Shown in pieces: positions 1-32,017 of a DNA stretch of 32,017 bases (its first letter is position 1; each line of letters begins with the position of its first letter). The position numbers and the translations under genes were made by a program. Below the pieces are notes generated by a model. It did no database searches, was not told the origin of the DNA, and saw only the letters and a program-made list of their open reading frames with translations. The stretch spans positions 1-32,017 of the forward strand of contig CALVSP010000012.1 of the NCBI GenBank assembly GCA_944359065.1. Reading direction: 5' to 3'. The stretch is from an uncultured Bacilli bacterium (GTDB lineage Bacteria; Bacillota_I; Bacilli_A; RF39; UBA660).

Positions 1-147
1 GTTCTGCCTCCCGTTTTTAATAATTGATACTATAATAGTAAAGTTGTCATCATTCTCTTTGCTTTTTAATTTATTTAACATAATATGCTTGTTGTCAAAC
101 TTTCCTTTAAAATAAAGCAATTTTACTATTTTTTCATTTCGTGTCAT
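1..147 (-). CDS. Unidentified open reading frame, partial (runs off the window start)
   Basis: An ATG at 147 overlaps the TGA stop of the RhuM-like gene in an ATGA arrangement, and the frame stays open for 49 codons to the window edge. The translation begins MTRNEKIVKLLYFKGKF and is lysine-rich. No Shine-Dalgarno sequence is visible in front of this ATG, although the frame is also open for 11 codons further upstream, in frame with a TAA. It does not resemble the usual RhuM C-terminus. It may be a coupled small gene, the remnant of a gene whose 5' end was replaced, or a chance frame. I do not recognise it. Confidence 0.3.
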   Translation of the reverse strand, partial: MTRNEKIVKLLYFKGKFDNKHIMLNKLKSKENDDNFTIIVSIIKNGRQN

Positions 148-815
148 TTGGTACAATTTAGCCAAGTTTGAAGTCCCATATTATCTTTTTTAGAATCAGC
201 TCTATTGTATATAATTTCAGGAGCAGTCATTCCAGTAATTGCAAAATGCAATTTATTTTGAACATTTTTATAAAATTCTTTTGTTATTTCACTATTTTTA
301 TCATAATCATAACTACACTCTTTATAAATATCAGTGATTTTTTGATAAAATCTTCTTTCACTAGCCCGAATCTCTTTTATTTTAACTAATAATTCATCAA
401 AATAATCTTTTCCAAACCTTGGACCATTTTTCAAAAATTCACTATTCAATACAAAGCCTTTTTTTATATATTCTTTTAATGTATTAGTTGCCCATATTCT
501 AAAAGCAGTTGCTTCCTTTGAATTAACGCGATATCCAACAGCAATAATAGCATCTAAACTATAGAAATTTGTATTATAATTCTTGCCATCAGTGGCAGTT
601 ACTCTAATTTTTTGAGTAACTGAATTTTTATCTAATTCACCACTTTTAAAAATATTTTGCAAATGATATGTAATGTTGTTTTCAGCAACATTAAATAATT
701 CAGCCATTGTTTTTTGCGTAAGCCAAAAATCTTCATTGTCATATAAAACTTCAACTTGGACATTGCCATTTTCACTTTGATACAAAATTAAATCTTTTAA
801 TGTATTTAAATTCAT
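144..815 (-). CDS. RhuM-family (virulence RhuM-like) protein, C-terminally truncated
   Basis: The 223-residue product matches the RhuM family in its N-terminal part: a DNA-binding-like segment with WLTQKTMAELFNVAENNITY, then a segment with YSLDAIIAVGYRVNSKEATAFRIWA, then the helical part ending at NMGLQTW. Family members I know are usually about 320-345 residues and continue for roughly 100 more residues; here the frame stops four codons after the conserved Trp. The ATG at 815 is chosen because AAGGAGGG lies eight bases upstream; an in-frame ATG eight codons earlier has no such site. RhuM proteins are common in accessory regions and their biochemical role is not settled. This copy is probably a truncated remnant, or less likely a short functional variant. 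Family assignment is firm; function is not. Confidence 0.8.
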   Translation of the reverse strand: MNLNTLKDLILYQSENGNVQVEVLYDNEDFWLTQKTMAELFNVAENNITYHLQNIFKSGELDKNSVTQKIRVTATDGKNYNTNFYSLDAIIAVGYRVNSKEATAFRIWATNTLKEYIKKGFVLNSEFLKNGPRFGKDYFDELLVKIKEIRASERRFYQKITDIYKECSYDYDKNSEITKEFYKNVQNKLHFAITGMTAPEIIYNRADSKKDNMGLQTWLNCTK

Positions 816-885
816 AAACTTAACCCTCCTTCTATACATTAACTATTTTACATAATATTATTTTTAAAACTACATATATGGATTT

Positions 886-8095: not shown

Positions 8096-9016
8096 ATGAT
8101 AAGATTAGGATATGTTTTTATTTCAAATACATTAGGTATAACTTGCTCAAAAACAATTACTTACACAGAATATAATAAAAATAAAAATTTAGATAAAATA
8201 GACAAAATAATATTAGAAAATTTAGATAACTTAAATAAAATAATCGATTACAATATCAAGAATAATATTCATTTTTATAGATTAACATCCAAACTAATAC
8301 CACTTGCTACTAAAGAAGATGTTGTATTTGATTATATTGATAAATATAAAGATAAATATAATGAAATAGGTTATAAAATCAAAAAAAATAATATGCGTGT
8401 TGACGTTCATCCTGATCAATTTTGTGTTTTAAACAGTACAAAAAAAGAAGTATTAGAAAATACTTTTAAAATACTAGAATATCATTATAAAATATTAGAT
8501 GCTTTAGATATTGAAAATAAAATAATCATTTTACACGTTGGTAGTAGTGTTTTAGGAAAACAAAATAGTATTAAAAGATTCATTAATAATTTTTATAAAT
8601 TACCTAAATATATTCAAGAATGTATTGCTATTGAAAATGATGATAAAATATATAACATTTTAGATTGTTTATACATTTGCAATAAATTAAATATACCATT
8701 AGTTTTAGATTATCATCATCATATTTGTAATAATGTTTGTGATATTGATAAATATTTAGAAGATATCTTCAAAACTTGGAAAACAACACCTAAAATACAT
8801 TTTTCTTCTCCTAAAAATAATACTAAGAAAGATTTTAGATCACATCACGATTATATTAATATAGATGACTTTATTAACTTTTTAAATAAAATTAAAAATG
8901 TCAATTTAGATATTATGTTAGAGGCTAAAGCTAAAGATGAAGCCTTATTTAAATTAGTTAGATTATTAAAATATTATGATTATAAATTTATTGATGATAC
9001 AACATTTATTAATTAA
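8096..9016 (+). CDS. uvsE: UV-damage endonuclease (UvsE/UVDE)
   Basis: The 306-residue protein has the TIM-barrel UVDE fold and its signatures: an N-terminal RLGYVFISNTL, then FYRLTSKLIPL, the metal-binding VDVHPDQFCVL, IILHVGS, the CIAIEND segment, LVLDYHHHICN, KIHFSSPK and a C-terminal DIMLEAKAKD. These supply the His, Glu and Asp ligands of the metal cluster. The enzyme nicks DNA 5' to UV photoproducts, giving an alternative to nucleotide excision repair. It is common in endospore formers, which fits the ger and cot genes here. Its last eight bases overlap the end of the convergent ferredoxin gene. Start supported by a modest GGTG site. Confidence 0.95.
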   Translation: MIRLGYVFISNTLGITCSKTITYTEYNKNKNLDKIDKIILENLDNLNKIIDYNIKNNIHFYRLTSKLIPLATKEDVVFDYIDKYKDKYNEIGYKIKKNNMRVDVHPDQFCVLNSTKKEVLENTFKILEYHYKILDALDIENKIIILHVGSSVLGKQNSIKRFINNFYKLPKYIQECIAIENDDKIYNILDCLYICNKLNIPLVLDYHHHICNNVCDIDKYLEDIFKTWKTTPKIHFSSPKNNTKKDFRSHHDYINIDDFINFLNKIKNVNLDIMLEAKAKDEALFKLVRLLKYYDYKFIDDTTFIN

Positions 9017-10123: not shown

Positions 10124-10149
10124 AAAAAAAAGTATAGATTCCCTATACT
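10124..10149 (-). terminator. Terminator after the tandem paralogs
   Basis: On the minus strand AGTATAG, loop GGAAT, CTATACT, then seven T. The stem overlaps the stop codon of the second paralog. Confidence 0.85.
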
Positions 10150-10895
10150 AATTTTTTCTGTTTTCCTTTTAATTCATTTAATTTTTCTTTTAATTGTTGT
10201 TCTAGTTGTAATTTTAATTCATTTGTTTCATTATTAGCAATCTTTACATTTAATAATGATTCAATTGCTCTAATTAATAATTCCTCATTAATATTATTAT
10301 TTGATAAATGTAAAATTGAACTAGCATACATTAACCAAAAAAATAAACTTAATTCATTTGTTCTCAAACTATAAATTATTTTTTCAATAAATTCTATACT
10401 TTGCTTATATGCTGAATCTTTTTTCAATTTTATATATTCAATTTTTGTATTAATGTCTTTAAGCGCTAAATTAAATTTTTTAACTAAATTTTCTATTTCT
10501 AATTCTCGTCGTACAATTTCAAAAAACAAACTATCTCTCTTATGATAACTTTCAGCATATTCCTTCTTTTCTTCTTTTAGTTTTAATTTTTCTAATTCAA
10601 TCAATTTTTCCAATTGAAGGATTTGATTAATAGATAATTTTTTTACATTATAATCATCAATAATTTCTTTTACTATCCAGTTTCCATTTTCATAAACTAA
10701 ATTAACTAAATTTCCTTGATAAGAACATTTATTGGTACTAATAAAAATACTATCTAATCTACCATTTTGATTGAATAAATCAACACTAATATATCCAATT
10801 GAATCCCTAAGGCTTGGATAATCACTGAAATCATTATAGAATTTTTTAATCCTTTCACTTTTAAAATGTCTATTTGTAACAACACCTAAATACAT
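10143..10895 (-). CDS. Uncharacterised protein, tandem paralog A (MYLGVV family)
   Basis: A 250-residue soluble-looking protein with no signal peptide or membrane helix. It starts MYLGVVTN and has a beta-rich N-terminal ~70 residues, then long charged helices with coiled-coil character. The C-terminal ~56 residues (from LSNNNINEELLIRAIESLL to the KKLV end) are nearly identical to those of the gene upstream, as are the first six residues and the leader. The middles of the two proteins share little. RBS AAGGGG precedes the ATG, 18 bases after the upstream paralog. I recognise no family. Duplication with retained ends suggests shared partners at the ends and a diverged middle; that is inference. 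Confidence 0.7.
   Translation of the reverse strand: MYLGVVTNRHFKSERIKKFYNDFSDYPSLRDSIGYISVDLFNQNGRLDSIFISTNKCSYQGNLVNLVYENGNWIVKEIIDDYNVKKLSINQILQLEKLIELEKLKLKEEKKEYAESYHKRDSLFFEIVRRELEIENLVKKFNLALKDINTKIEYIKLKKDSAYKQSIEFIEKIIYSLRTNELSLFFWLMYASSILHLSNNNINEELLIRAIESLLNVKIANNETNELKLQLEQQLKEKLNELKGKQKKLV
10147..10317 (-). repeat. Duplicated 3' gene segment, copy A
   Basis: This ~171-base segment, encoding the C-terminus of paralog A, matches 10918-11091 with about 14 mismatches and one codon indel by eye, far more similar than the sequences between the copies. Confidence 0.85.
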
Positions 10896-10902
10896 ATTAA
10901 TT
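10879..10902 (-). repeat. Duplicated leader and start segment, copy A
   Basis: These 24 bases spanning the start codon and the leader of paralog A are identical to 11620-11643 at paralog B. Confidence 0.85.
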
Positions 10903-10913
10903 GCCCCTTAAAA

Positions 10914-11636
10914 TCATACTAATTTTTTCCGTTTTCCTTTTATTTCATTTAATTTTTCTTCTAATTGTTGTTCTAATTGTAATTTTAATTCATTTGTTTC
11001 ATTATTAACAATTTTTACATTCAATAATGCTTCAATTGCTCTAGTTAATAATTCTTCATCAATGTCATTATTATTTGATAAATATAAAATTAATGTAACA
11101 CTATTTAACCAATTTTCAAAATTAAAAGATGATGATTGTGTTTCTATAATTATTTTCATACATTGTATTTCGAGATATTTTTTTATATCATTTAAATCTA
11201 ATTTAATATTTTTAGCATAACAAATAAAATTGTGTCTCAATGTTTCTATTATAAATTCTCTAAACGTAAAATTACCAAATAAACTAGATAAGACTTTGAA
11301 AATTAATTCATCTTGTTTTGATTCTTGATACATTTTTTCTTTTTCTTTTTTTAAAGTTTTAGTTTCTTCATCTATCAGATTAAAAAACTGAAATAAAAAG
11401 ATTTCGTCTAATCTACTATCTTTATCAAAAACTAAATCTGGTACTTTTTCAAAATTATATACCCCATCTTCATCAATTTTTACAAATAATAGATCACCTA
11501 TTTTAAATTCTTTAGCATTTTTTAAAGTAATTTTTGTTAATTTATTTGCTCTATCACATAAACTGATTGATACATACCTTTCTAAAGTTTGTTCATTTTG
11601 TTTTATTACAGTATTGCTTACAACACCTAAATACAT
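10914..11636 (-). CDS. Uncharacterised protein, tandem paralog B (MYLGVV family)
   Basis: A 240-residue soluble-looking protein starting MYLGVVSN. The first ~70 residues are beta-rich (KEFKIGDLLFVKIDEDG looks like a small barrel or SH3-like stretch), followed by mostly helical sequence. The C-terminal ~57 residues (LSNNNDIDEELLTRAIEAL onward) closely match paralog A, while the centre does not. It is the first gene of a two-gene unit behind a near-consensus sigma-A promoter, with RBS AAGGGGG. No known domain recognised, and no mobile-element or phage gene adjoins it. It could be a lineage-specific family; function unknown. Confidence 0.7.
   Translation of the reverse strand: MYLGVVSNTVIKQNEQTLERYVSISLCDRANKLTKITLKNAKEFKIGDLLFVKIDEDGVYNFEKVPDLVFDKDSRLDEIFLFQFFNLIDEETKTLKKEKEKMYQESKQDELIFKVLSSLFGNFTFREFIIETLRHNFICYAKNIKLDLNDIKKYLEIQCMKIIIETQSSSFNFENWLNSVTLILYLSNNNDIDEELLTRAIEALLNVKIVNNETNELKLQLEQQLEEKLNEIKGKRKKLV
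10918..11091 (-). repeat. Duplicated 3' gene segment, copy B
   Basis: Partner of 10147-10317; encodes the C-terminus of paralog B. Confidence 0.85.
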
Positions 11637-11661: not shown

Positions 11662-11690
11662 ATAATAACACAATTCCATTAATAAGTCAA
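11662..11690 (-). promoter_or_regulatory. Sigma-A promoter of the tandem paralog operon
   Basis: On the minus strand TTGACT and TATTAT are separated by exactly 17 bases. The -35 hexamer ends two bases from the ATPase stop codon, so the promoter fills the short gap between the two units. Confidence 0.8.
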
Positions 11691-14376: not shown

Positions 14377-15834
14377 ATGGATAAAGAGTTAGATAAAATA
14401 ATTAATCATATTAAAGAAATGAATGGTAATAGTAGTGACATTAATGTTAGATACTTTAATATTCATAAAGAAAAAGTAGCTTTCATGTTTTTAGAAAGTG
14501 TTGCTAGTGATGATAAAATAAGTAATTTTTTAGGGAAAAGTTTAAGTATTAATGTAAGAAGTAAAAAAAATATATTTGAAAATTTATTTGATAATATTAA
14601 TAATACAATTCCTAATAGTAAAGTTAAGATAATAGATAACTATGACGATATTTTTTATCATTTAGCAAGCGGTTTTACTTGTGTTTTTGTCGATGGTTAT
14701 AATAAAGCAATCACTTTAGAAACTAAAGCTTTATTAGATAGAAGTGTTACTGAAGCTACTAGTGAACCTGTTTTAAAAGGTCCTAAAGATTGTTTTATTG
14801 AAAATATTTTAGCCAATATGGGATTAATTAGGAAAAGAATTAAAGATCCCAATCTTTATTTTGAAGAAACAAAAATTGGAAGAAGGACAAAAACAAAAGT
14901 TATAATTGGTTATATTAAAGATATTGCTGATGAAGAAAAAGTAAATTTATTAAAGAAAAAACTAGAAAAAATTAATATTGATGGAATCATCGATTCAAAT
15001 TATATAAAAGAATTATTAACCGATAATCAAAAATCTTTTTTACCAAGAGTAATATCTACAGAAAGACCTGATTTAACCGCCATGGGATTATTAGACGGTA
15101 AAATAGCTATCATCGTAGAAAACACTCCTTATGTTTTATTACTTCCTACCGTATTTGCTGATTTTTTCAAATCATCTGAAGACTATTATACAAAACCATT
15201 TAATGCCTCTTTTACAAGAATTTTAAGATATATTGCATTCTTTATTGCTATTTTAGTGCCAGCTTTTTATATTGCCGTAACAACATTTAATATGGAAATT
15301 GTTCCTAGTTCTTTATTAATATCATTTTCCATTCAAAGGGAAAGTGTTCCCTTTCCCACCATAATAGAGGTTCTAATACTAGTAATTTCTTATGAGATAT
15401 TAAGAGAAGCCGATACAAGAAAACCACAAATCATGGGCGCATCCATCAGCATTGTCGGTGCTTTAATTTTAGGTGAAGCAGCTGTTTCTGCCGGCGTTAT
15501 ATCGCCAATTGTTGTTATTGTTATTTCTATTTCAGCTGTTTCAGGAATGGGTTTCAATGACCCAGACATAACAAATGCAATTAGAACATGGAGAATATTA
15601 TTTATGTTAGCAGCTTGTATGTTTGGAATTGTTGGAATCGTCATTTTATTCATTATTTTTATAACTAAATTAAATAGTATTGAAGTATTGGGTACACCTT
15701 ATCTTTCCCCTTTATCTCCTTTTAGTTTAAAAGATTTTAAAAATTCTTTGACAAGATTCCCTCAACAAAAAATAAAAACAAGATCATCTTATTTTAATAA
15801 AAAAAACATTAATAGAATAGGAAGTGACAAATGA
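14377..15834 (+). CDS. gerA: Spore germination receptor subunit A (GerA/GerKA family)
   Basis: The 485-residue protein has the GerA family layout: a hydrophilic N-terminal half (about 1-280) containing the conserved TSEPVLKGPKDCFIENI and ISTERPDLTAMGLLDGKIAI segments, then a membrane half with about five helices including FPTIIEVLILVISYEILREA. It sits in the inner spore membrane and, with the B and C subunits, senses small-molecule germinants and starts ion release. Gene order is A-C-B, and its stop overlaps the gerC start as ATGA. The germinant cannot be told from sequence. The symbol is family-level; the name gerK would be equally possible. Confidence 0.93.
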   Translation: MDKELDKIINHIKEMNGNSSDINVRYFNIHKEKVAFMFLESVASDDKISNFLGKSLSINVRSKKNIFENLFDNINNTIPNSKVKIIDNYDDIFYHLASGFTCVFVDGYNKAITLETKALLDRSVTEATSEPVLKGPKDCFIENILANMGLIRKRIKDPNLYFEETKIGRRTKTKVIIGYIKDIADEEKVNLLKKKLEKINIDGIIDSNYIKELLTDNQKSFLPRVISTERPDLTAMGLLDGKIAIIVENTPYVLLLPTVFADFFKSSEDYYTKPFNASFTRILRYIAFFIAILVPAFYIAVTTFNMEIVPSSLLISFSIQRESVPFPTIIEVLILVISYEILREADTRKPQIMGASISIVGALILGEAAVSAGVISPIVVIVISISAVSGMGFNDPDITNAIRTWRILFMLAACMFGIVGIVILFIIFITKLNSIEVLGTPYLSPLSPFSLKDFKNSLTRFPQQKIKTRSSYFNKKNINRIGSDK

Positions 15835-16991
15835 AAAAATTATTAATCATTCCATTAATATTCCTATTAACTGGTTGTTGGAATTATCGCGAACTTAATC
15901 AATTAGCTATAACAACTGGGATTGCAGTAGATAAAGAAAATGATAATTATAAAATAACTATTATGATAGCTAATTCTAAAAAAAGCAGTAGTTCAGATGA
16001 TAGTATAACGCCATCAGCTGCTGTTTATGATGGAACAGGTCAGACAATTTATGAAGCCTTTAAAGACACTTCTTTAAGTGTATCTAAACAAATTTATTTA
16101 AGTCATGTTGATGTATTAGTATTATCTGAAGAAGTTGCAAAAAATAATTTAACTGATGTAATTGATTTTCTATTTCGTTATCCCCAAACAAGAAATAATT
16201 TTTATTTAGTTTTAGCAAAAGATAAAAAAGCTAGCGACATCTTAAAAGTAACTACGCCATTAGAGACATTTCCCTCTCAAAATCTAGCTAAAAATCTTGA
16301 AATAACTGATAAATTACAAGGATTTACTTATACAGTCGATTTTACTGATTTTACAAAATCACTTGTATCAGAAGGAATAAATCCTATTCTTCCATCAGTA
16401 ACAGTCATCGGAAATAGTGAAGAAGGAAATAAAGAAGAAAACGCACAACAAAATGAACCATCTACTTATTTAAAATTAGATATGTTAGGATTATTTAAAA
16501 AAGATAAATTTGTTGTATGGGCTAATCCTAATCAAAGCAAAGGAATCAATATAATCAATAATAAAATATACATATTAGGAGTTATCATTAATTACCAAAA
16601 TGAAAAAATAGTAACAGAAATAACCGAAATGAAAACTGATTTTAAAGTTGAAAATAATAAAGTGAAAATAACTATTGATACAACAGGAGCAATTCAAGAA
16701 GTAAATGCTAATGTTGATCTATATAATCTTAAAACTATTGAAGAAATTCAAAATTCAGATGTTGAAAAAATTAAAGAATATGTTAATGATGCTATTAATT
16801 TAGCCAAAGATAATAAAACGGATATTTTTGGTTTTGGAAACTATGTTTATAAGAATAATCCTAAAAAATGGAATGAAATAAAGGATAAATGGGACGATGA
16901 AATATTCCCTAGTTTAGAAGTAGAAATAGAAGTCAATCTAAAACTTCAGGCCAAAGGTTCAATAAATAATATCGTCGAGGTGAGAGAATGA
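15831..16991 (+). CDS. gerC: Spore germination lipoprotein, subunit C (Ger(x)C family)
   Basis: The 386-residue protein begins with a lipoprotein signal (hydrophobic stretch, then LTGC with Cys16), followed directly by WNYRELNQLAITTGIAVD, the hallmark of Ger(x)C proteins. It would be diacylglycerylated and held on the outer face of the inner spore membrane as part of the receptor. The C-terminal part (FGFGNYVYKNNPKKWNEI) is also typical. A short low-complexity insert rich in Glu, Asn and Gln lies near residues 198-210. ATGA overlaps occur on both sides, so all three receptor subunits are coupled. Confidence 0.93.
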   Translation: MKKLLIIPLIFLLTGCWNYRELNQLAITTGIAVDKENDNYKITIMIANSKKSSSSDDSITPSAAVYDGTGQTIYEAFKDTSLSVSKQIYLSHVDVLVLSEEVAKNNLTDVIDFLFRYPQTRNNFYLVLAKDKKASDILKVTTPLETFPSQNLAKNLEITDKLQGFTYTVDFTDFTKSLVSEGINPILPSVTVIGNSEEGNKEENAQQNEPSTYLKLDMLGLFKKDKFVVWANPNQSKGINIINNKIYILGVIINYQNEKIVTEITEMKTDFKVENNKVKITIDTTGAIQEVNANVDLYNLKTIEEIQNSDVEKIKEYVNDAINLAKDNKTDIFGFGNYVYKNNPKKWNEIKDKWDDEIFPSLEVEIEVNLKLQAKGSINNIVEVRE

Positions 16992-18061
16992 AAGTAACTA
17001 ATTCAGAATATGCTTGTTTATCATCTTTTTTAATAAGATCATTATTTTTTGGACCAGCTATTTATAGTATCTTACATTTTGCTTTGCAAGATGGCTGGAT
17101 AAGTATCATCGTTTCATTTATTTTAAGTTTTATTCCTTTAATTATTTATTATAAGCTACTAAATTGTAATCCTAATGATAATATTGTCAGCTTAAATAAC
17201 AAATTAGGATTAATAGGAAAAATAATTAATACAATTCTAACTGTTTTTGTTATTTTTCACGCCAGTCTAATTCTATGGAACTTAACTAACTTCATATATT
17301 CACAATTTCTATTTCAAACGCCATTAATTGTTATTGCTATTATTATTTCCTTTGGTATATTTTATGTCGGTATTAAAAACCTAACAACTATTGCTAGAAC
17401 AGGAACTGTTTTCTTTATTATTAGCACTATACTATATTTTATAGCAGCTTTATCTTTAATTAGTAAATGCGATTTAAATGGTCTTAAACCCATTTTCAAC
17501 TCAGGTATTATGCCAATTTTAAAGGGAAGTTTTTCTTCTTTAGGACTTAATATATTCCCTTTATTTATAATTTTAATAATACCGAAAAATAACATCAAAA
17601 ATAATAACAAAATTATATCATCTTTCTTTAAAGTTTATATTTTCAGATATTTGTGCATGCTATCAGTATTAGTAATTTGTGTAGCTATTTTGGGAATAGA
17701 ATTAACTAACCTTTATCAATATCCGGAATATCACATTTTAAAAACTATTAATATTGCTAACTTTTTTCAAAGAGTCGAATCAGTTTTATCAGTTCAGTGG
17801 ATATTTGATGCTGTCATGTCAATAGTATTATGCCTTTATTATGTTAAAGAAAGTATAACCAAAACATTTAATTTAAAAAACAAATTTAATTTAATAAATA
17901 TTATTTGCATTATTAGTATTTTAATTATCGCAAATTATATCTTTACTAGTAATACGGTAGCAGAAACATTTTATAAAAATATTTATCCTTTTCTAACTTC
18001 AATCTTTTTCTTAATTATTCCTTTGATAATATTAATAATAGTTAAAGTTAAGAAAACTTAA
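16988..18061 (+). CDS. gerB: Spore germination receptor permease, subunit B (GerAB/GerKB family)
   Basis: The 357-residue membrane protein has about ten hydrophobic helices and belongs to the endospore germination permease branch of the APC superfamily. It is the germinant-binding subunit in known receptors. The ATG overlaps the gerC stop as ATGA. Its TAA stop directly abuts the stop codon of the convergent popT gene, with no base between, so the transcription terminator of the operon has to lie inside popT (see the hairpin at 18112-18145). Confidence 0.92.
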   Translation: MKVTNSEYACLSSFLIRSLFFGPAIYSILHFALQDGWISIIVSFILSFIPLIIYYKLLNCNPNDNIVSLNNKLGLIGKIINTILTVFVIFHASLILWNLTNFIYSQFLFQTPLIVIAIIISFGIFYVGIKNLTTIARTGTVFFIISTILYFIAALSLISKCDLNGLKPIFNSGIMPILKGSFSSLGLNIFPLFIILIIPKNNIKNNNKIISSFFKVYIFRYLCMLSVLVICVAILGIELTNLYQYPEYHILKTINIANFFQRVESVLSVQWIFDAVMSIVLCLYYVKESITKTFNLKNKFNLINIICIISILIIANYIFTSNTVAETFYKNIYPFLTSIFFLIIPLIILIIVKVKKT

Positions 18062-22395: not shown

Positions 22396-22443
22396 CACCC
22401 TTTTGTCATAGTTGAATATGCTATATTAGAAAATGAAAGGGTG
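22396..22443 (+). promoter_or_regulatory. Inverted repeat that could mask the cot ribosome binding site
   Basis: CACCCTTT at 22396-22403 is fully complementary to AAAGGGTG at 22436-22443, which is the ribosome binding site of the coat gene. A second small pairing (ATAG with CTAT) lies inside the 32-base loop. It matters only if transcription starts upstream of 22396, which is unknown. Confidence 0.3.
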
Positions 22444-22449
22444 GATTTT

Positions 22450-22896
22450 ATGTGTAATAATGAAAACGAATCTTGCAAATGCATTGCTGAAATATTAACT
22501 GTTATCTGTATTTTACAACAAAACGCAAATTGTTCTGATTCTTGTTTAGATACATGTGATCGTGGATTTTTAGGTTGTGGCACAACTACTTATACTTGTA
22601 ACACTAGACCAATAATGTTATATACTTGTTGTGGTAATGGTACACCTTGGAGTATGCCAACTACTAAAGATACAACAGATTGTAATCAAACAGTAGTTCC
22701 AGCTAATTGTTCAAATGTATTTAGAATTGAAAAAATCGATGGATGCTGCGCGACATTTAGAGTATTAGCAAGTAATACCGATCCAACTACACAAGCTGCA
22801 ATTCCATATGTAGCTACTAATTCTTTCTTCACTATGAACTTAAATTGTGTTTGTAGTTTAAGATGTTTACAAGATACATATGTAGAATGCTTATAA
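22450..22896 (+). CDS. Spore coat protein of the CotY/CotZ family
   Basis: The 148-residue protein has 19 cysteines (about 13%), with N-terminal pairs and a C-terminal CVCSLRC segment, matching the CotY/CotZ family of outer-coat and crust proteins that form disulfide-linked lattices on spores. The ATG at 22450 is preferred over an in-frame GTG at 22441, because that GTG lies within the AAAGGGTGG ribosome binding site. It is monocistronic, flanked by genes on the other strand, with its own terminator. I could not assign a sigma-E or sigma-K promoter with confidence: CATAGTTGA at 22407 resembles a -10 but no good -35 goes with it. Confidence 0.85.
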   Translation: MCNNENESCKCIAEILTVICILQQNANCSDSCLDTCDRGFLGCGTTTYTCNTRPIMLYTCCGNGTPWSMPTTKDTTDCNQTVVPANCSNVFRIEKIDGCCATFRVLASNTDPTTQAAIPYVATNSFFTMNLNCVCSLRCLQDTYVECL

Positions 22897-31504: not shown

Positions 31505-31531
31505 ACAAAAAAATCTAAATTGTCTTAGATT
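31505..31531 (-). terminator. Terminator after the Fic gene
   Basis: On the minus strand AATCTAA, a six-base loop and TTAGATT form a seven-base-pair stem over the stop codon, followed by six T. Confidence 0.75.
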
Positions 31532-32017
31532 CTTTTTTTTCTTTTATCAACGCCTTCTCAAATTGCATAATTAATAATGTTTTCGAATAACGAGCATTCT
31601 TCATTGCTTCCTCTAAATCTTTTTTTTTCATTTTTGACCAATCCAACGTATAATCTGGAATATTAGCTTCAACAAATTCTCGCATAAATTCTCTTATTGT
31701 TCTACCATTACCTTCTCTAAATGGATGAATTGTCAATAAATCATAATAAAATTGCGCTAAAAAAATAGAATAATCTTGCAAATTATGACAATTTTTAAAA
31801 TCGTCTTGCATTTCTTTTAAAACAAGATCTAAATGGTAATCAATTTCTTTTTCACTTACAAAATAAGATCCTGGCTTTGTCATATAAACAGTTCTATATT
31901 TACCAGCAAAAGGATATAAATCACCAAAAAGATATTTATGAATGTCACATAAATGTTTTTTATCAAATGTTCCTGAAATTGGTTTTTCATACAATTCTAC
32001 TAATCTCTCAAAAGTTA
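31515..32017 (-). CDS. Fic/DOC-family protein, N-terminus beyond the window
   Basis: At least 167 residues are encoded here and the frame remains open to the window edge, so the true start is not visible. The Fic core is intact: the GTFDKKHLCDIHKYLFGDLYPFAG region, the flap segment around MTKPGSYF, and the active-site motif HPFREGNGR with catalytic His. Fic enzymes transfer AMP (or another nucleotide moiety) from a nucleotide to target proteins and often act as toxins or regulators. The inhibitory S/T-x3-E-G/N helix is not seen in this part; it may lie in the missing N-terminus or in a separate antitoxin gene upstream. Confidence 0.9.
   Translation of the reverse strand, partial: TFERLVELYEKPISGTFDKKHLCDIHKYLFGDLYPFAGKYRTVYMTKPGSYFVSEKEIDYHLDLVLKEMQDDFKNCHNLQDYSIFLAQFYYDLLTIHPFREGNGRTIREFMREFVEANIPDYTLDWSKMKKKDLEEAMKNARYSKTLLIMQFEKALIKEKKESKTI

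Follow-up and report, generated by a model that had tools for sequence, protein, structure and literature searches.

A tandem pair of single-gene cassettes with conserved ends and divergent bodies in an uncultured Candidatus Faecisoma genome

Results

The window analyzed here (32,017 nucleotides) is one whole contig of the source genome (G000; 1.43 Mb in 104 contigs, 85% complete). Two open reading frames, P2 and P1, lie on its minus strand with 18 bp between them (Table 1). An exact 24-nt run, AATTAATATGTATTTAGGTGTTGT, is common to the leader and start of both genes, and their 3′ ends form a repeat of 157 nt at 92% identity. About the same value is found across 56 aligned codons, and 86% is obtained when 171 nt are compared without gaps. 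Between these ends, the encoded proteins are only 17% (residues 7–85), 36% (residues 86–165) and 21% (residues 166–194) identical. Since BLASTP aligns the two proteins with an overall E value of 4e-28, the middles are genuinely, if weakly, related. The original prediction of an identical 24-base start segment, a 3′ segment of about 171 bases matching at roughly nine positions in ten and barely alignable middles is therefore an accurate description of this pair. The GC content of the cassette is 20%, compared with 25% for the window.

Table 1. Coordinates of the tandem cassettes and their signals in the window
Feature	Position	Strand	Description
Cassette promoter	11662–11690	−	TTGACT (−35), 17-nt spacer, TG-extended TATTAT (−10); from consensus scan
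Leader/start segment of P2	11620–11643	−	24 nt; identical to 10879–10902; few differences in other copies
P2	10914–11636	−	240 aa; upstream gene; body of B type, 3′ end of A type
3′ conserved segment of P2	10916–11072	−	C-terminal ~52 codons
Putative fusion junction	10896–10913	−	18 nt; P2 terminator stem and P1 promoter gone, ribosome-binding site retained
Leader/start segment of P1	10879–10902	−	24 nt
P1	10143–10895	−	250 aa; downstream gene; A-type allele
3′ conserved segment of P1	10145–10301	−	from repeat and alignment comparison
Intrinsic terminator	10124–10149	−	AGTATAG-GGAAT-CTATACT-T7; 5′ arm is the ORF end (Leu-Val-stop) and holds the TAG stop

The promoter of the pair starts directly 3′ of the stop codon of a P-type Ca-ATPase gene. 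In the consensus scan, the match TTGACT-N17-TATTAT taken alone occurs no more often than the chance count. The promoter is kept, though, in 12 of 13 aligned upstream regions and is missing only before P1: every other copy is preceded by TTGACA-like and TG-extended TATTAT-like elements spaced by 17 nt. A palindromic operator overlapping the −10 element was dropped from consideration because its right arm is not conserved. At the other end of the cassette, the last codons of P1, AAAAAATTAGTATAG (KKLV-stop), also serve as the A-tract and 5′ arm of a terminator (AGTATAG-loop-CTATACT-TTTTTT). Apart from P2, in-group copies have the same 7-nt stem arms, which enclose a longer loop in G006. G008b, an extra copy with its own promoter, has a different stem that likewise overlaps the ORF end, and the terminator is still present after the truncated copy G009b. 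From these alignments, the unit typically consists of promoter, leader, ORF and terminator, self-contained for each copy, with the stem overlapping the last codons. These signals help to account for the conservation of the ends, with promoter and leader on one side and a terminator overlapping the last codons on the other. The rest of the C-terminal conservation is at the protein level, aided by recombination.

The pair in the window departs from this arrangement. The 3′ end of P2 reads AGTATGA, as opposed to the AGTATAG...CTATACT of an intact stem, and the junction AGTATGATTTTAAGGGGC differs from both the intact terminator and the intact leader. Without a terminator after P2 or a promoter before P1, and with a gap of 18 bp, the two genes are well described as an operon behind a near-consensus promoter, as had been proposed. 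We infer that two cassettes were fused here into a single bicistronic transcription unit. Weak matches to promoter and leader elsewhere lead to an unrelated ORF of 51 codons (MSNYEFQYNLDIDSAIIIANIKQ...; L103:1741–1950 on contig C43 of G000) that adjoins genes resembling sporulation genes YqfC/YqfD by eye. Its promoter and leader are 75% identical over 57 nt to those of the cassette, and similar matches occur in G015 (contig C9), G008 (C6) and G006 (C22). This ORF and the cassette possibly share a common strong promoter type.

Our comparison of the locus took in 18 Candidatus Faecisoma genomes (Mycoplasmatota), one locus of which carries the name Candidatus Faecisoma merdavium in its record. 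The family is present in 10 of these genomes, which make up the whole of one subclade, and is absent from the other eight. The carriers are exactly the genomes with a Ca-ATPase at least 94% identical to that of the window; the ATPases of the non-carriers are 75–90% identical. The family adjoins the Ca-ATPase gene in all ten carriers, and in nine it lies between this gene and a rubredoxin/ferredoxin-like Fe-S operon; in the tenth (G006), the contig ends earlier. Wherever the position is readable in non-carriers, other genes follow the ATPase, and in three outgroup genomes the ATPase gene has its own terminator-like hairpin at the position of the cassette. Most in-group genomes contain one copy, and two (G000 and G008) contain two in tandem. 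G009 carries, 2.3 kb away, the truncated second copy G009b with a promoter of its own, and the copy in G006 has two in-frame stops. The closest relatives of P1 (90% identical in G017, 68% in G012) and of P2 (91% in G006) all sit at the same slot. The comparison of copy number and allele swaps across genomes that had been suggested for this locus thus yields one or two copies, with alleles exchanged between species (see below).

Two further genera of the family contain distant relatives, whose proteins start MTIGIVR, MSVGIVR or MEGKEVFGVVR, and in one of these genera they also form a tandem pair (G293). Near a distant homologue in G133, two neighboring small ORFs of like length and pattern (L091:6450–7276) are possibly another tandem pair of paralogues. 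A profile search of a sample of the phylum gave no convincing relative, and we judged a single match in G668 (E 9e-4, four stops) to be due to chance. No relatives were found in collections of viral contigs, phages and plasmids. Two further observations concern the neighborhood. Relative to the rubredoxin/Fe-S operon, a UvdE-type UV endonuclease gene (window 8096–9016) is found on one side in the in-group and on the other in outgroup genomes (L060, L063, L064), so the cassette slot may have arisen with a local rearrangement. G006 has two ATPase regions, one of in-group and one of outgroup type (L031 and L067, on contigs C64 and C8); the bin may be mixed, or a second locus may have been introgressed.

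Comparison with the flanking genes demonstrates that species of the genus exchange these alleles. Flanking genes mostly differ between these species by a pS of 0.2–0.5. The cassettes of G009 and G016 are separated by a dS of 0.022, compared with 0.637 for the ATPase and 0.515 for the rubredoxin gene. The same holds for P1 and its relative in G017 (0.172 against 0.591 for the ATPase) and for P2 and its relative in G006 (0.155 against 0.622). Conversely, the ATPases of G000 and G016 are close (dS 0.216), yet identity between their cassette proteins is no more than about 47% for P1 and 36% for P2. G009 and G016 have in common a tract that starts near +60 of the gene, contains two differences and stops at about +679, inside the conserved 3′ segment. 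Because cassette dS falls so far below flank dS, P1 and P2 represent allelic lineages A and B, both old, that were brought together. The pair consists of pre-existing lineages in tandem and is not the product of a recent duplication or of divergence in place. The expectation that simple duplication would not suffice was therefore correct, and recombination is involved. Recombination is not confined to the cassette. The spore-germination genes (gerA/gerC/gerB-like, window 14377–18061) upstream of the ATPase differ between G000 and G017 by a pS of 0.10–0.18, compared with 0.41 for the ATPase. Since recombination is common across the whole region, allele exchange alone is no proof of selection for exchange. 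The ger proteins are 96–99% identical even to those of the outgroup-type contig L067, GerA is 96% identical in L061, and a recombination boundary lies between the ger operon and the ATPase.

The 3′ end of P2 has a history different from that of its body. The body groups with B-type alleles of G014, G015 and G008, and the last ~55 codons are A-type-like. P2 resembles P1 at 32 of 33 informative sites in the 3′ end, compared with 71 of 197 before it. A maximum-chi-square permutation test on triplets returns p = 1/2001 with P1, G017, G012 or G009a as the A parent; the divergent G001 allele in this role gives no signal. Unequal rates would not by themselves cause the signal in P2 to change direction. 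The synonymous differences point the same way, with a pS between P1 and P2 of 0.16 in the C end compared with 0.57 (residues 7–85) and 0.62 (residues 86–165), and of 0.42 in the C end between P2 and G015. In tree comparisons, the body data reject the C-end topology; the 165-nt C-end data favor their own tree, and the body tree is not rejected by them (AU p = 0.126). The C ends of P1 and P2 are 92% identical at the nucleotide level, and those of P1–G012 (94%), P1–G017 (92%), P2–G017 (89%) and P2–G012 (89%) are similar. C ends are thus no more alike within the genome than between species, and conversion within the genome is not needed to explain them. The 3′ end is a segment common to many alleles across species, and P2 is a mosaic.

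The ratio dN/dS is about 0.24–0.25 for close pairs, about 0.35 for P1 and G012 and about 0.05 for the ATPase. No pairwise value exceeds 1, and hence no positive selection was detected by this measure. These ratios describe a gene that is, by its substitution pattern, functional and loosely constrained. The original prediction had invoked gene conversion at the ends or diversification of the middle. Its recombination component stands, but the ends are not specially homogenized in this genome (92% compared with 89–94% between species), and in place of diversifying selection on the middle the close pairs show purifying selection. The divergence of the bodies, for which pS is unreliable at 17–36% identity, is high for the age of the flanks and points to old alleles or to import.

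AlphaFold2 models of P1 (mean pLDDT 82) and P2 (84), which are not fully independent because their input alignments overlap, both have five strands followed by six helices. The strands span residues 2–79 and the helices residues 89–242 in P1, compared with 2–64 and 78–233 in P2. The proposed check for a common fold thus returned two like predictions of an OB-like β domain followed by six helices. Of the anticipated architecture, the β-rich N-terminus is found in both models, and the supposed coiled-coil C-terminus is better described as a six-helix bundle. The product appears to be a soluble, cytoplasmic protein. The best Foldseek match of the P1 N-domain is EutN/CcmL (E 2.5e-3, about 20% identity, 82 columns). 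The same family ranks 18th for P2 (E 0.69) among weak matches to various OB folds, and the VIA comparison with EutN/CcmL (Z 7.7, rmsd 3.8, 74 aligned residues) is within the noise range. Neither protein matches PF03319 at E values up to 10, this family is not among the 16 listed for 15 relatives, and a sample of 97 genomes from the order contains no member of it. EutN/CcmL proteins form the vertices of bacterial microcompartments (BMC-P); for P1 and P2, the safe reading of the models is a general OB-like β barrel.

Searches of Pfam, PHROGs, PADLOC, NCBIfam and PDB sequences found no family for P1 and P2, in agreement with the initial impression that they belong to none that is recognized. The PHROGs search gave no convincing match (best E 0.11), PADLOC returned zero families for P1, P2 and three distant relatives, and Foldseek against BFVD gave nothing at E ≤ 0.001. 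Low-scoring matches to HEPN (0.078), TYA (0.01) and Hha (0.41) were found for one member each and dropped. VIA also matched 14-3-3, STAT3 and cohesin STAG, but at Z 7–8, values that helical bundles reach by noise, and we disregarded these matches.

Several occupants of the slot and its surroundings are candidate defense genes. RhuM (PADLOC candidate PDC-S05) lies beside the cassette in 4 of 10 genomes, an Abi_2/AbiD gene follows the ATPase in the sister species G007, and a PDC-S01-type AAA_14/DUF4143 gene precedes the ATPase in G016. RhuM is abundant in the genus, with up to seven copies per genome, and finding it in the slot therefore argues only weakly for defense; variable Abi_2 copies are few in the genus. 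The two ends of the contig carry a RhuM gene with an in-frame TGA (PADLOC PDC-S05; window 144–839) and a gene for a Fic-domain protein (PDC-S04; 31515–31994). A small cysteine-rich protein of 151 aa encoded at 22441–22896 is CotY/CotZ spore-coat-like by eye only.

Discussion

We propose that a single-gene cassette, fast-evolving and specific to this clade, occupies the slot between the Ca-ATPase gene and the rubredoxin/Fe-S operon, and that P1 and P2 represent two of its alleles. The near-constant ends of the cassette would act as homology arms, through which species of the genus would trade whole or partial alleles by homologous recombination. Exchange through such arms leaves the ends alike and the bodies different. 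In G000, two alleles would have come into tandem, and loss of the P2 terminator and the P1 promoter would have placed them on one transcript. We hold this evolutionary part of the explanation with high confidence. The product, probably well expressed to judge from its promoter, may be an accessory protein whose body binds a variable partner and whose C-terminal tail binds a constant one, most likely in phage defense. With this possible role in recognition or defense included, the explanation as a whole is evenly poised between right and wrong. Because the slot also takes RhuM and an Abi_2 gene, phage defense is our best single guess for the role of the protein, but a tentative one: a loosely constrained orphan gene with no defense role is about as likely.

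The strongest competing account, only a little less credible than our own, is precisely such an ordinary fast-evolving orphan in a highly recombining genus, shaped by old duplication and differential loss and serving neither recognition nor defense. Weak purifying selection (dN/dS about 0.24–0.25, compared with about 0.05 for the ATPase) suffices for fast divergence, loss is tolerated (two nonsense codons in the G006 copy, truncation of G009b), and neighboring genes also recombine. On the other hand, the gene is kept at its slot in ten of ten in-group genomes with conserved promoter and terminator, and differential loss would not produce the three species pairs in which alleles have a much lower dS than the flanks. 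The in-genome gene conversion favored by the original prediction, which would keep the ends of a local duplicate pair alike, could explain why the ends are 92% identical and the middles are not, and why pS is low in the C end. This idea is largely countered by the equal similarity of 3′ ends between single-copy species (94% for P1–G012, 89% for P2–G012) and by G006, which shares the mosaic end of P2 and in which no second copy was found; we regard it as very unlikely.

A phage- or mobile-element-derived moron, that is, a leftover promoter–gene–terminator unit with an accessory role, for example in superinfection, would be compatible with the stand-alone, AT-rich character of the unit (20% GC compared with 25% in the window) and with its position just after a host gene whose own terminator sits there in outgroups. 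No relative was found in viral contigs, phages or plasmids (best PHROGs E 0.11), however, and no prophage gene was noticed beside the cassette, which makes this origin unlikely. Least probable is an assembly artefact in which alleles of two strains were misjoined in a metagenome contig. Such an error would be conceivable in a genome of 104 contigs at 85% completeness where two divergent alleles of one slot adjoin, but the junction matches neither intact end, as a join at a common word would, the identical run at the two starts is just 24 nt long, and two copies occur independently in G008 and, in another genus, in G293.

The recombining cassette resembles several documented systems. Flagellin (fliC) type loci have conserved ends and a variable center, and they share with the cassette constant termini, a variable middle and allele exchange through the ends. 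The cassette protein differs by an N-terminal β domain in place of the flagellin helix, with no Pfam flagellin match and no export signal seen. The specificity genes of type I restriction systems (hsdS) carry exchangeable target recognition domains (PMC3077401). In hsdS, as in the cassette, conserved segments flank variable parts, and recombination there reshuffles alleles at one locus. In contrast to hsdS, the cassette has one variable body instead of two target recognition domains and no sequence or Pfam match, including to the Methylase_S domain; no hsdM, hsdR, methylase or restriction gene was noticed among the ORFs around the slot. Morons are accessory prophage loci that are often expressed in lysogeny (PMC7067206). 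At the sequence level, the cassette likewise places one AT-rich gene, equipped with a promoter and a terminator, between other genes, but its slot is chromosomal, filled in ten of ten subclade genomes and without a phage relative found. The core defense hotspots of Pseudomonas aeruginosa (PMC10250203) resemble the slot in lying beside conserved genes and in having varying accessory occupants, some of them defense candidates. The cassette slot is very small by comparison (one or two genes), and its main occupant has no known defense homology. The mode of evolution is of a known kind (compare domain exchange in hsdS, PMC3077401, and moron-like units, PMC7067206).

The exchangeable single-gene cassettes are real and constitute a well-defined, undescribed protein family. 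It is rather doubtful, but conceivable, that this family comprises exchangeable recognition proteins and serves Faecisoma and related Mycoplasmatota as a single-gene immune locus, in which transcription signals and a constant tail would be the recombination arms for swapping specificities. If the protein is a defense factor, it would represent a new family without homologue in present defense libraries, and further such genes could be sought in the slot. If it is not, the cassette would be a good case of a fast-evolving orphan whose divergence can be measured directly against conserved flanks. In these uncultured gut bacteria with reduced genomes, the locus cleanly illustrates how, in nature, conserved ends let species swap variable bodies.
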